From: a virus
Direction: 5' to 3' (one strand)
DNA length: 20,619 bases
IMG/VR virus record: IMGVR_UViG_3300021519_000091
Location: 1 to 20,619 of that record
Below the pieces are notes generated by a model, which was given only the letters and a program-made list of their open reading frames with translations, made no database searches and was not told where the DNA came from. Shown piece by piece: positions 15,909-20,619 of the stretch; the stretch's first letter is position 1, and every line of letters begins with the position of its first letter. The position numbers and the translations under genes were made by a program.

Positions 15909-16928
15909 ATGGAGCCAAAAATATCTCCAATGGAGCGTCGTACACTTTCGGCGCTAGACTCAGCCAACCCATTTTCAACTCCAGTGCGCCCGCCGCAAAC
16001 GCTGGACGGTCGCCCGGTATCAAAAATGCCAGACCCGGACCCAGACCCTCTTGAACAACGAGACAGAGAAGGTGACGACATGATTGATATTGCAATTGAA
16101 AGCAAAGAGCGCCGGCGCCGACGCCCAAAAGCTGCTCTTGAAAAGATTAAGGAGCCAGAGCCTTCTGACGTTACGGTTCCTGTACAGGCAGCAGAAACCG
16201 TAGAGGAATCGGAGCCGTTTAGGAACCCGATCACGGAATCCCATGACCAAAACGGAATGCCGTCCTACCGCTGCGAGTTTGCTGGGCGGGACATCTTTGT
16301 TGGCCTGCCTTGGTACACAACCAGCAACCCGGTCACAACGATGGCGCTCGTGGCGATGGCGCTGGATTTTGGAAAGGATCGCATTCGATTTGATTGCGTG
16401 ACAAACACCGAAATTCACGTTGCCCGGAACATGATTGCCAAAAAGTTTCTCGAGACTGACGCCAAGTGGCTGTTCATGCTCGACCATGACATCATTCCAA
16501 GCATTGGCCGGGCGGCTTGGTACAAGAGCTGGGTTGAGTCAACCCGGACAATGCTGGACCAGCCGCTTCTTCGGCACGTTCTTCACCGTCTGATGGGCGC
16601 TGGTAAGCGGCTTGTCGGGGCTGCGTATTTTGGTAGGCAGGAAGGCGCACGGCTGATGTGTAGCGACCAATCTCTTGTCGCAGACGCCCGGGCGTTCTCT
16701 GACAAGGTTGCGCCAGTCGATTGGATCGGGACTGGCTGTATTATGATTCACCGCAAAGTGTTTGAGGACATCGACGCCACTCAGCCAGAAGTAAAAGGCG
16801 ACTACTTTTTGCCAACAACGGGGGCGAGCGAGGATATTGCGTTTTGCAGGCGAGCAAAGAAGGCTGGGCATCAATGCCACATCGACCTCGGGGTCCCGGT
16901 GAAGCATCTCGGATACAAAACATACTGA
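15909..16928 (+). CDS. Glycosyltransferase-like protein (GT-A fold)
   Basis: A 339-residue protein. Residues 1-115 are low complexity, acidic and Pro-rich. From about 125 a GT-A-like domain begins: DIFVGLPWYTTSNPVTTM, then AKWLFMLDHDIIPS with the metal-binding DHD (192-194), then VDWIGTGCIMIHRKVFED (270-287), then GASEDIAFCRRAKKAGH (305-321), the acceptor-site SED box seen in family 2 and related enzymes. It probably transfers a sugar from a nucleotide-sugar to a virion or host glycan; the acceptor is unknown. The N-terminal tail might bind a capsid protein. ATG at 15909 follows the scaffold stop by two bases; ATG 16080 is an alternative start. The stop overlaps the next start (TGATG). Confidence 0.7.
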   Translation: MEPKISPMERRTLSALDSANPFSTPVRPPQTLDGRPVSKMPDPDPDPLEQRDREGDDMIDIAIESKERRRRRPKAALEKIKEPEPSDVTVPVQAAETVEESEPFRNPITESHDQNGMPSYRCEFAGRDIFVGLPWYTTSNPVTTMALVAMALDFGKDRIRFDCVTNTEIHVARNMIAKKFLETDAKWLFMLDHDIIPSIGRAAWYKSWVESTRTMLDQPLLRHVLHRLMGAGKRLVGAAYFGRQEGARLMCSDQSLVADARAFSDKVAPVDWIGTGCIMIHRKVFEDIDATQPEVKGDYFLPTTGASEDIAFCRRAKKAGHQCHIDLGVPVKHLGYKTY

Positions 16929-17515
16929 TGAACATATACGCATTCTATCAATCAATTCCGACCGCAGATCAGCCCGAAGAATTCGCCTGCGCGAACTGGT
17001 GGAAAACCTCATGGACTGCCAACGGTTGGAACCCCGTAATGCTTAATAGGTCGCACGCACAAGGAAGCCCGCTGTATAACAAGTTGCAGCAAAAGCTGGC
17101 TCAAGAGCTGAATAAGCACAACAGCCTCGTTGCCCGGGCGGCATGGTTTCAATCGAGGTTTACCCGCTGGTGCGCCTTGCATGCTGCTGGCGGGGGCTGG
17201 ATGTCGGATTACGATGTCTTGAACCTTGACCTAACGCCCCGAATTGCAAAGGACGCCGAAAAGAAGACGCTGCTTCTAAACGAAGGCCCGGCATATTTGT
17301 TTTACGCCAGCGCCGAGCATTGCCTTGGAGCAATTCGGAAATTTATCTCCGAGGATCTAAGTGAAGATGGGAATGTCCGCCCAGAGGTGGATATTCTTAA
17401 TTGTGAACCAGAGCTTGGCGTTCTGCTTGAAAGGGTTGTGCATGTTCACAGCCGGGGAGACAAGTGTCGGTCTGCAAAAATGCAGGAAATATTTAGCCAG
17501 CTAGAAGAAAGCTAA
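16928..17515 (+). CDS. Glycosyltransferase-like protein (GT32/capsular type)
   Basis: A 195-residue protein of the DXD sugar-transferase type. It has an N-terminal aromatic strand (MNIYAFYQSI), a helix with FQSRFTRWCALHAAGGGWMS, then the metal-binding SDYD (93-96), a pattern typical of family 32 and capsular polysaccharide enzymes (R...LHAAGG.WxSDYD). The rest is compact and shorter than in bacterial members (usually over 250 residues), so some C-terminal elements are missing. It is coupled by TGATG to the upstream glycosyltransferase. Together they may form a two-step sugar pathway; the substrates are not shown. No SD. Confidence 0.72.
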   Translation: MNIYAFYQSIPTADQPEEFACANWWKTSWTANGWNPVMLNRSHAQGSPLYNKLQQKLAQELNKHNSLVARAAWFQSRFTRWCALHAAGGGWMSDYDVLNLDLTPRIAKDAEKKTLLLNEGPAYLFYASAEHCLGAIRKFISEDLSEDGNVRPEVDILNCEPELGVLLERVVHVHSRGDKCRSAKMQEIFSQLEES

Positions 17516-17573: not shown

Positions 17574-17587
17574 CAAAGCACGGTGTG

Positions 17588-17628
17588 GCTTCTCCGCATG
17601 AAGCTGGTTGCAGGACCTAAACCTGCAA
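17588..17628 (+). other. Two leader hairpins
   Basis: GCTTC (17588-17592) pairs with GAAGC (17600-17604) around a 7-base loop, and TTGCAGG (17608-17614) pairs with CCTGCAA (17622-17628) around ACCTAAA. The ATG of the small ORF at 17598 lies in the first hairpin. These could act as a leader structure in the transcript. Confidence 0.45.
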
Positions 17629-17711
17629 ACGGTCGTAACATCCGCCCAGACGACGGGGGCTACAACAAGACTTTTGCGTTGCCGCGCAGGCAATTGCACG
17701 CTTGGACGTAG
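17598..17711 (+). CDS. Possible 37-residue leader ORF
   Basis: A 37-codon ORF in the otherwise gene-free stretch 17516-17772, beginning MKLVAGPKPANGRNIRPDDG and ending in LHAWT. The product is basic, with no membrane segment. Codon use resembles the neighbours, but there is no SD and the start lies in a hairpin loop. It might be a leader peptide that controls the next gene, a small structural peptide, or chance. I know no family for it. Confidence 0.35.
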   Translation: MKLVAGPKPANGRNIRPDDGGYNKTFALPRRQLHAWT

Positions 17712-17715
17712 CCTA

Positions 17716-17766
17716 GTTTTCTAACTGGTTATTGTTCAGGCAGAACAAACTCAACCACTAGAAAAC
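17716..17766 (+). promoter_or_regulatory. Nested long hairpin directly before the FGE-like start
   Basis: Three stacked stems nest in order: GTTTTCTA (17716-17723) with TAGAAAAC (17759-17766), TGGTT (17726-17730) with AACCA (17753-17757), and TTGTTC (17732-17737) with GAACAA (17743-17748) around the loop AGGCA. That gives 19 pairs, ending six bases ahead of the ATG at 17773. This is likely a translation-control or RNA-protection element. Confidence 0.65.
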
Positions 17767-17772
17767 ACACCT

Positions 17773-18756
17773 ATGAAGTTCCTTAAAGGAATCCTGATCG
17801 TCGCGGTTTCTGCATTGGGCATTAGCACCAGCGAAGCTGCTTGGAATACACTTGTAACAGTTGCTGGCACTTCTGCTATTGCTCCCGCCTCAAATTTTAA
17901 AGGGCAGGCAGTCACTGGCTTTAAGGTCGGTCAAAGCGAAGTCAACTACACTGAATGGCTGGCCGTTCGCACATATGCAGGCAACATTGGAGGGTTTGAC
18001 CTCTCCTTGTCTGGCACTGGCTACTCGGCAACCGCTCCCGTTGAGACTCTCAACTGGTACGACGCACTAAAATGGTGCAATGCCGCAACCATTCAACAAG
18101 GCACGCTAACCCCGGTTTACAATGTTGGAACATTGTCTGTCGGATCGCTGACCAGCACTGGCACGGTCGCCACGGCTATTGTTCCCGGAGGCCACAAGCT
18201 CTCTTCTGGAGCTTGGGTGCGGGTGACTGGAGCAACTCCTACTGGCTACAACCTTACCCGCTCGGTGTTTGTTGTGAATGCTACCACGTTCACGTATCAA
18301 ACGGTGGTGTCTGGCACAGCAACCGCCACTGGAACACTTGTTGCAACGGTGTTGTACACAACTGGCGACGTTGTTCCAAACGTAGATGCAGCCGCAACTG
18401 GCTACCGTCTGCCGAGCGAAAAAGAATGGGAATGGGCAGCTCTGGGTGGCGTTTCTAGCGGATCGTACACCTACTCTGGGAGTAACACATCAACCTCCGT
18501 TGCATGGTCAAGCACCAACATTCCTGCGCGAGGTGCGCAGCCTGTCATGGGCAAAACCGCCAATGAACTGAGCATCTACGACATGAGCGGAAACGTAAAC
18601 GAATGGTGCTTTGATGACTCAACTCCTCTTTACGGTCGCCGGGTTCGTGGCGGCTGTTGGTTACAAGACGCAAATTCGCAACGCACCTTGATACGTGGCT
18701 ATTCAAACCCAGCTCGTCAAGAGGCAGGCTTTGGGGTTCGTGTCTTCGCAAACTAA
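17773..18756 (+). CDS. Secreted FGE/C-type-lectin-fold protein with an inserted beta domain
   Basis: A 327-residue protein. Residues 1-23 form a signal peptide (MKFLKGILIVAVSALGIST, with cleavage likely after SEA). The rest is a formylglycine-generating-enzyme/sulfatase-modifying-factor fold: SEVNYTEWLAV (55-65), YDALKWCNA (96-104), TGYRLPSEKEWEWAALGG (209-226), YDMSGNVNEW (269-278), RVRGGCW (290-296) and a final GFGVRVFAN. Residues about 118-195 are an insertion resembling repeats of phage tail proteins (GHKLSSGAWVRVTGATPTGYN, then TTFTYQTV). The catalytic C-terminal cysteine pair of true FGE is absent, so binding rather than catalysis is likely. The same fold serves as the variable binder of diversity-generating retroelements, but no reverse transcriptase or template repeat is in the window. 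Confidence 0.8.
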   Translation: MKFLKGILIVAVSALGISTSEAAWNTLVTVAGTSAIAPASNFKGQAVTGFKVGQSEVNYTEWLAVRTYAGNIGGFDLSLSGTGYSATAPVETLNWYDALKWCNAATIQQGTLTPVYNVGTLSVGSLTSTGTVATAIVPGGHKLSSGAWVRVTGATPTGYNLTRSVFVVNATTFTYQTVVSGTATATGTLVATVLYTTGDVVPNVDAAATGYRLPSEKEWEWAALGGVSSGSYTYSGSNTSTSVAWSSTNIPARGAQPVMGKTANELSIYDMSGNVNEWCFDDSTPLYGRRVRGGCWLQDANSQRTLIRGYSNPARQEAGFGVRVFAN

Positions 18757-18816: not shown

Positions 18817-20031
18817 ATGGCAGACACAAACAATTGTATCCCTCTCGCAACAATCCAAAATTTTGCGAGCAAAGACGTTAACCGCATCATCGGCCAGATC
18901 GCAAAGGTCTTGGCTCGCAAATCACCGTATATCAACAGCATAGACGGGGGAACTCTCCCTAATGTCTCTGACGTTGTGCGTTCCGTAGTCGAAGAAATGG
19001 CCGTCCCGGCTGCTTCTCTGGCAAGCCCCACGTTTGTCGAGGACACCACGCTTTGCGGCGTCGGCGCTACTCCCGACCAAGTGGGCTCTACGGAGTACCA
19101 GTTCAGCCTCCAGACGCTCCGTGGCGCTGGTCCTCGCGTCTGCGTTAAGCAGGCCCGGACGGCGTTCAAGGGTTCGTACTTGCAGGCGCAGGTGAGCTTG
19201 GAGAAGACCATTCTTCAAATCATCAACGCCGACATTCGTTACCAGTATCTCATTCAGTCCGGGGTCAAATATGTCGTGAATACCACTGCGGCGTTCACGA
19301 GCAATTTGACGGGCGACATGCAGAACATCAATACGAAGTTCGCGCAGACGCTTCCTGACGGTCCTCTGAACTTCAAGACGCTCTACCGGGCTGGTACGTT
19401 CCTGCGCGAAGAAATGCTCGCCGAGCCTTTCGCCGCCAAGGAAGGCGAATTCTTCCAAGTCATGCTCTCCGCCGATGCGATTGAAAACATTCGCAACGAC
19501 GCCGACGTGAAGGAAGACCTGTTGTACCTAACCGCTGGCAGCTTCAAGCTCGGTGAAGATTCCATCAGCGGCTACCAGTTCCAAGGCTATCGTGGCTTTG
19601 CGTTTGGGATTGACCAGCAGCCTTTACGGTCTACTGGCTTCGATTCTAACGGAAATCTGGTGCTCGTTAATCCGATCATCAGCACCGCCGTGACCAACGG
19701 ATTTGCACAACGCCGCAACCCTGATTGGGTCTCTGCTCCTTACGAAGTAGGTTTCGTAATTGCAGGTGACGCATTCAAGCGTTTGGTTCCCGAAAACTAC
19801 GTCGGAGAAGGCACGTTTAAGTTTGCCCCGCAGCTCGCAATGGGCGAACTGGAATGGACTTACTTCCGCGACAATGACTGTAACTTGTACGGCGACTTTG
19901 GTCAGCACATCTACCAAATCAGCCGCGCAATTCAGCCAATTCGTCCGCAGAACGTCATGCCGATTCTGTACAAGCGTTGCCCGTTTGACGGTCAGCCGTT
20001 GCCTTGCTCTACGGCAGCAACTGGGCTTTAA
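18817..20031 (+). CDS. Major capsid protein
   Basis: A 404-residue protein placed after portal and scaffold-like genes and before a strong stem-loop, the usual position of a highly expressed major capsid protein. It has an N-terminal helix (DVNRIIGQIAKVLARKS), a region of mixed strands including ASLASPTFVED, and a C-terminal half with FVIAGDAFKRLVPENYVGEG and ELEWTYFRDND, compatible with an HK97-type fold, though sequence alone is weak evidence for the fold. The last residues form a Cys-flanked tail (KRCPFDGQPLPC) that may bind metal or a disulphide. Codons ending in C or G are frequent, as in strongly expressed genes. No SD; the leader is rich in AACC repeats. Confidence 0.75.
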   Translation: MADTNNCIPLATIQNFASKDVNRIIGQIAKVLARKSPYINSIDGGTLPNVSDVVRSVVEEMAVPAASLASPTFVEDTTLCGVGATPDQVGSTEYQFSLQTLRGAGPRVCVKQARTAFKGSYLQAQVSLEKTILQIINADIRYQYLIQSGVKYVVNTTAAFTSNLTGDMQNINTKFAQTLPDGPLNFKTLYRAGTFLREEMLAEPFAAKEGEFFQVMLSADAIENIRNDADVKEDLLYLTAGSFKLGEDSISGYQFQGYRGFAFGIDQQPLRSTGFDSNGNLVLVNPIISTAVTNGFAQRRNPDWVSAPYEVGFVIAGDAFKRLVPENYVGEGTFKFAPQLAMGELEWTYFRDNDCNLYGDFGQHIYQISRAIQPIRPQNVMPILYKRCPFDGQPLPCSTAATGL

Positions 20032-20099: not shown

Positions 20100-20619
20100 A
20101 TGTCTAATTTGTCTACCGCAGTATTTCAGCAATATGCACTCACCTTGCTTCAGCAAATAGCTGGAGCATCTGGAGTTGTAGGAATTCATAGCAACCTTTC
20201 TACAGCGGTTTACAGGCAATACGTCCTGACGTTGCTAGAATACATTGCTACTCACGGTGGCGGCGGAGGCGCAACTGGGTTCCAAGGCGCAACCGGGTAT
20301 CAAGGCTCAACAGGAATTGGATTTCAAGGAGCAACGGGCTATCAAGGTTCGACTGGCGTTGGCATTCAAGGAGCAACGGGCTCTGGAACACAAGGCGCAA
20401 CAGGTGTTGGCTTGCAAGGCAGTACGGGCTTGCAAGGTGCAACTGGTTTTGGCTCGACAGGGCCACAAGGTGCTACGGGCACGACTGGATCGGCTGGTTC
20501 TACTGGGTTAACTGGGGCAACGGGCACAGGCGTTGCAGGCAACGCGGGAGCTACTGGTGCTACGGGCGTTGGCTCTACTGGCTTGCAAGGCAGCACAGGG
20601 TTGCAAGGAGCAACTGGGG
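20100..20619 (+). CDS. Collagen-like fibre protein, 3' end cut by the window edge
   Basis: The frame opens at ATG 20100 (after TAAGGTT) and stays open to the last base, 173 codons. The N-terminal 52 residues contain a duplicated helix: [19 protein letters not shown] (3-21) and [19 protein letters not shown] (32-50), a repeat of 29 residues. After a Gly-rich hinge (HGGGGG) come Gly-X-Y triplets of the GATG/GSTG/GFQ/GYQ kind. Proline is nearly absent, with Thr and Gln in place of it, as in phage collagen-like tails. Collagen-like phage proteins form triple-helical fibres or head/tail decorations. The duplicated N-terminal helix may anchor it to the virion. The length and C-terminal tip domain are outside the window. 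Confidence 0.8.

Follow-up and report, generated by a model that had tools for sequence, protein, structure and literature searches.

An FGE-fold protein with a predicted signal peptide is an optional neighbour of the presumed capsid gene in a group of uncultured phages

The window analysed here, namely the whole 20,619-nucleotide stretch of IMG/VR virus record IMGVR_UViG_3300021519_000091, raises the question of why a gene for a probably secreted protein with a formylglycine-generating enzyme (FGE) fold should be found among phage structural genes and what its product may do there. The ORF at 17773-18756 on the plus strand codes for a protein of 327 aa, hereafter the FGE protein. The gene is genuine and is under purifying selection, with whole-gene dN/dS values of 0.04-0.14. 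Relatives with 50-99% identity were found in ten IMG/VR loci, and no full-length relative was found in named phage isolates. The contigs of these relatives share a gene order consisting of terminase, portal candidate, scaffold candidate, GT1, GT2, the FGE gene and the presumed capsid gene. GT1 (15909-16928, plus strand) is a glycosyltransferase-like protein with weak matches to PHROG glycosyltransferases and conserved synteny, and GT2 (16844-17515, plus strand), the synteny of which is also conserved, resembles a glycosyltransferase by eye only, the family searches having given no match. The gene at 18817-20031 (plus strand) follows the portal and scaffold candidates and is the best-conserved member of the cluster, with 82-100% identity in the relatives. 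As PHROG, Pfam and PDB profiles gave zero matches to its product, the latter is presumed to be the major capsid protein from position and conservation only. The virion gene cluster proposed in the sequence-only reading is confirmed by this synteny and by a virion-protein neighbour in one relative. Shine-Dalgarno usage does not set the FGE gene apart, most genes here being without such a site, and scans for promoters and terminators gave results at chance level only. Right after the presumed capsid gene, at 20100-20619, there is a gene coding for a protein with collagen-like Gly-X-Y repeats, which is cut by the end of the window.

The FGE protein shows a Pfam FGE-sulfatase match (1.7e-20) over residues 82-324 and belongs to the PF03781 superfamily, with 74.2 bits against the curated cut-off of 23.3. 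The AlphaFold model, based on an alignment of 38 phage and bacterial sequences, has a pLDDT of 90.2 and a pTM of 0.88. Its FGE/C-type-lectin fold is made up of an N-terminal part (residues 23-116, 17839-18120, plus strand), which has pLDDT values of about 89-97 over most of its length and to which TvpA and CarF align, and a C-terminal part (residues 195-327, 18355-18753, plus strand), which is covered by the FGE-sulfatase match and is conserved with low dN/dS. In the PDB, the top hit by sequence is TvpA, the Treponema denticola variable protein (PDB 2y3c; 5.9e-16, or 5.2e-40 with the family profile), and TvpA (2.4e-15) and CarF (PDB 5aoh; 1.5e-14) also head the Foldseek ranking, well ahead of true FGE (6e-8), SUMF2 and PvdO, with TM-scores by target length of 0.65-0.73 for the TvpA/CarF-like C-type-lectin fold. 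Among solved structures, it is TvpA and CarF to which the model comes closest, and not true FGE. CarF, which has a carbapenem self-resistance role in the envelope, is likewise a single FGE-fold domain, but it is bacterial, is encoded outside a phage structural cluster and does not have the beta insert described below, the window protein differing from it on each of these points.

The likeness to FGE itself (SUMF1) is limited to the shared Pfam superfamily domain, since the structure match is weaker than those to TvpA and CarF and the catalytic cysteines are replaced. In the alignment, no conserved cysteine pair after the RGG motif was detected in the window protein or any relative, and, with the invariant GG anchor as reference, Q298 and Q303 are taken to occupy the positions of human C336 and C341. 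A catalytic FGE is ruled out because the active-site cysteines are missing, and both the fold and its non-catalytic state, as read from the sequence at first, hold true.

The occurrence of CarF and PvdO among the structural neighbours is consistent with the gene being cargo for lysogenic conversion or host fitness that has no connection with phage competition; its product might, for instance, provide CarF-like envelope protection or act as a periplasmic enzyme of the PvdO/EgtB kind. This reading is also favoured by a second, unrelated-looking phage group (L217-L228), in which secreted FGE-fold proteins without the insertion are encoded beside an integrase-like gene. Despite that, we regard such a role as quite unlikely, given the absence of the catalytic cysteine pair, scores that are far from the curated NCBIfam cut-offs for PvdO, GldK and EgtB, and the location of the gene in a structural cluster and not at a prophage edge.

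TvpA is the target of a diversity-generating retroelement, and the FGE subtype of the window protein is the same as that of TvpA, Mtd and TaqVP (PMC6328139). The sequence-only reading had likewise regarded the C-terminal fold as a possible variable binder of such an element and had proposed a search for a reverse transcriptase and a template copy. Neither was found: nothing in the window closely resembles a copy of the 3′ end of the gene, and 26 phage contigs of up to 94 kb, many of them fragments, contain no reverse transcriptase. The differences from a 99%-identical relative lie mostly at third codon positions, are spread across the gene and show no adenine-linked hypervariation, and dN/dS of the C-terminal segment is 0.01-0.23 where computable. 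The C-terminal part of the fold occupies the place that serves as variable region in retroelement targets, but in contrast to the hypervariable C-terminus of TvpA that of the window protein shows conservation, and the latter protein contains an additional inserted module. Due to the absent template, the absent reverse transcriptase and the conserved C-terminus the gene was rejected as a retroelement target and this explanation is largely refuted, its version with both missing parts located outside the fragments being extremely improbable.

A Sec-type signal peptide is predicted for residues 1-22 (17773-17838, plus strand) from the n/h/c pattern, with cleavage after the TSEA motif placed by eye, and residues 1-23 are disordered in the AlphaFold model while the remainder is folded. 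All 18 homologues checked possess such a peptide, consisting of a charged start, a hydrophobic stretch and a cleavage region with small residues, although the signal sequences themselves differ among them. As controls, 224 other ORFs with a length of 100 aa or more were taken from four phage contigs, and only 8 of them passed the same home-made rule, one of the eight being an FGE gene of the same family. Export of the protein, already suggested at first reading, is well supported at the sequence level by this conserved pattern.

The two parts of the fold are separated by a beta module (residues 117-194, 18121-18354, plus strand), which interrupts the fold between TPVY and YTTGD and forms a compact beta domain in the AlphaFold model. 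It is lacking in L149, one of the phage homologues, and in the bacterial homologues, where a short loop takes up this site. An HMM of the module matches a 1346-aa protein of the related phage G009 (two copies, E 6e-13) as well as an 821-aa and a 1921-aa protein of another one, G010 (2e-5 and 2.5e-4, respectively), and outside the module these proteins resemble PHROGs of the virion, head-closure and baseplate categories, with the 821-aa protein, which adjoins the capsid gene, matching phrog_1645 at 1.4e-43. The G009 copy resembles Pfam E1_FCCH (PF16190) at 1.1e-6 and 29.0 bits, just below the cut-off of 29.5; the window insertion itself gave no direct PF16190 match in the Pfam search and no match to an Ig family in the family search. 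On sequence grounds the module is probably better called E1_FCCH-like than Ig-like, as it was named previously, whereas its suggested relation to modules of virion proteins is corroborated by the G009 and G010 copies. Between the window and L006 the module is 90% identical and the rest of the protein 66%, and between the window and L004 the values are 74% and 79%. The module is thus out of step with the remaining protein, from which, as judged by these identities, it has been exchanged independently.

An insert common to virion proteins fits a virion part equally well, which speaks against regarding the gene as cargo. The main rival to the cargo reading is that the FGE protein is itself a virion component, i.e. 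a receptor-binding or decoration lectin held by the E1_FCCH-like module, which would perhaps reach the virion via the periplasm and lysis. The FGE gene is located immediately upstream of the presumed capsid gene in all 10 relatives carrying it, the module occurs in the large virion or baseplate-like proteins mentioned above, and its matches to predicted viral structures, about 80-100 residues long, include phage fibres and baseplate proteins. Moreover, FGE-fold receptor binders are known, Mtd being one example (PMC6328139), and the tail-fibre targets of a D. piger prophage have the FGE fold (PMC12724379). Tentaclins (PMC10743442) are also phage proteins combining a C-type-lectin domain with beta domains, but in these an N-terminal lectin domain is followed by Ig domains and they can be retroelement targets, while the window protein has a signal peptide and its additional domain lies within the fold itself. 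A conserved signal peptide is, however, unexpected in a virion protein of a tailed phage, and the L149 homologue does without the module.

The distribution of the gene also bears on this point. The presumed capsid protein used as a query retrieved 80 loci, 73 of which have at least 1.5 kb upstream and were counted for the presence of the FGE gene. It is present in 13 of the 73 and absent from 60, and supported branches of the capsid-gene tree force at least five gains or losses. The gene is therefore optional, which argues against the virion component, an unlikely explanation in our view. The silent-site distances of the two neighbouring genes disagree, with dS between the window and L003 being 0.61 in the FGE gene and 1.41 in the capsid gene, and that between the window and L004 being 1.56 and 0.41, respectively, which points to gene exchange. 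Each phage contig carries one FGE domain. One 94-kb contig, IMGVR_UViG_3300020229_000001, contains two related terminase/portal/capsid sets (L030, 3344-4549; L033, 3472-4686), one of them without the FGE gene, and may represent two phages joined by assembly or lying in tandem.

Relatives without the FGE gene often have extra glycosyltransferase- or methyltransferase-like genes upstream of the RNA leader described below, as recognised by eye. Extra glycosyltransferase cargo was found in 0 of 13 loci with the FGE gene versus 39 of 58, a difference that is not significant once relatedness is considered, and mutual exclusion of the two was dropped for this reason.

Secreted bacterial homologues, which do not have the inserted module, include proteins of Verrucomicrobiota, among which the best matches are found; they suggest, but do not show, that this lineage was the donor or is the host. 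A search of 388 genomes of Verrucomicrobiota, the phylum of the best bacterial homologue, gave no match to the presumed capsid protein.

A conserved structured RNA leader with pseudoknot-like pairings, supported by covariation and a covariance model, is located at 17578-17720 (plus strand). It comprises five helices, two of them of pseudoknot type, in 15 sequences, and contains 58 compensatory (double-change) cells, whereas shuffles gave 18.7 such cells and slid controls no more than 16. Since the structure was drawn from the same 15 sequences, it is favoured over the slid versions with regard to cells paired, and the compensatory count is the stronger evidence. The covariance model, R1, finds one copy per locus, on the same strand, in 76 of the 80 capsid-gene loci, including by construction the 15 sequences (the window among them) from which it was built. 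No Rfam match was obtained for the leader, and permissive thresholds likewise gave nothing credible. In loci without the FGE gene the median distance from the leader end to the capsid gene is 60 nt, while in those with it the leader ends 42-77 nt before the FGE gene, which is in turn separated from the capsid gene by about 37-65 nt; the FGE gene thus lies between the leader and the capsid gene.

The explanation that we tentatively put first is that the FGE gene is optional late-operon cargo (a moron) of bacterial origin, the product of which is exported and acts on the host envelope, perhaps against superinfection, as the sequence-only reading had suggested. The source from which the gene was captured would be a family of bacterial proteins that are secreted and have a TvpA/CarF-like FGE fold, and the gene would be read late, from the capsid-gene transcript, behind the folded RNA leader. 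Its product would leave the cytoplasm via the Sec pathway, the lectin-type fold would bind a ligand in the periplasm or on the cell surface, and the E1_FCCH-like module would offer a second contact surface. The phage would most probably benefit from an envelope of the infected cell altered in such a way as to hinder adsorption or entry of other phages or the loss of progeny to receptors. Actual export, late expression, ligand binding and the superinfection role are what we infer, the last of these because phages are known to export exclusion proteins, T5 Llp being an analogous case, the gene of which lies beside that of the receptor-binding protein (PMC9586334). T5 Llp and Cor (PMC9586334) are exported phage proteins, as the window protein is predicted to be, but they are small lipoproteins with an unrelated fold, and exclusion by the window protein is putative. 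What the gene illustrates is a C-type-lectin protein, predicted to be exported and not diversifying, as swappable cargo in a phage structural operon, with a domain exchanged with virion proteins. Should the FGE protein modify the envelope of the host at a late stage of infection, it would represent a new type of phage surface effector.

A more speculative version, which we consider improbable, is that the previously unreported pseudoknotted leader sets late expression and couples whatever cargo lies behind it to capsid synthesis, the exported FGE protein with its virion-derived domain being a soluble decoy that blocks the attachment partner of the virion itself. In any case, the leader is a hallmark of an entire group of uncultured phages and provides a testable case for RNA control of capsid expression. 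In L183, L185, L187 and L197, GT2 and the leader are separated by several hundred bases that share sequence and contain no obvious gene, possibly representing another structured RNA. In one relative, a match to the Rfam abiF RNA lies ahead of the capsid gene (L150, 3093-3129), and another contains a tRNA gene (L145, 178-250).
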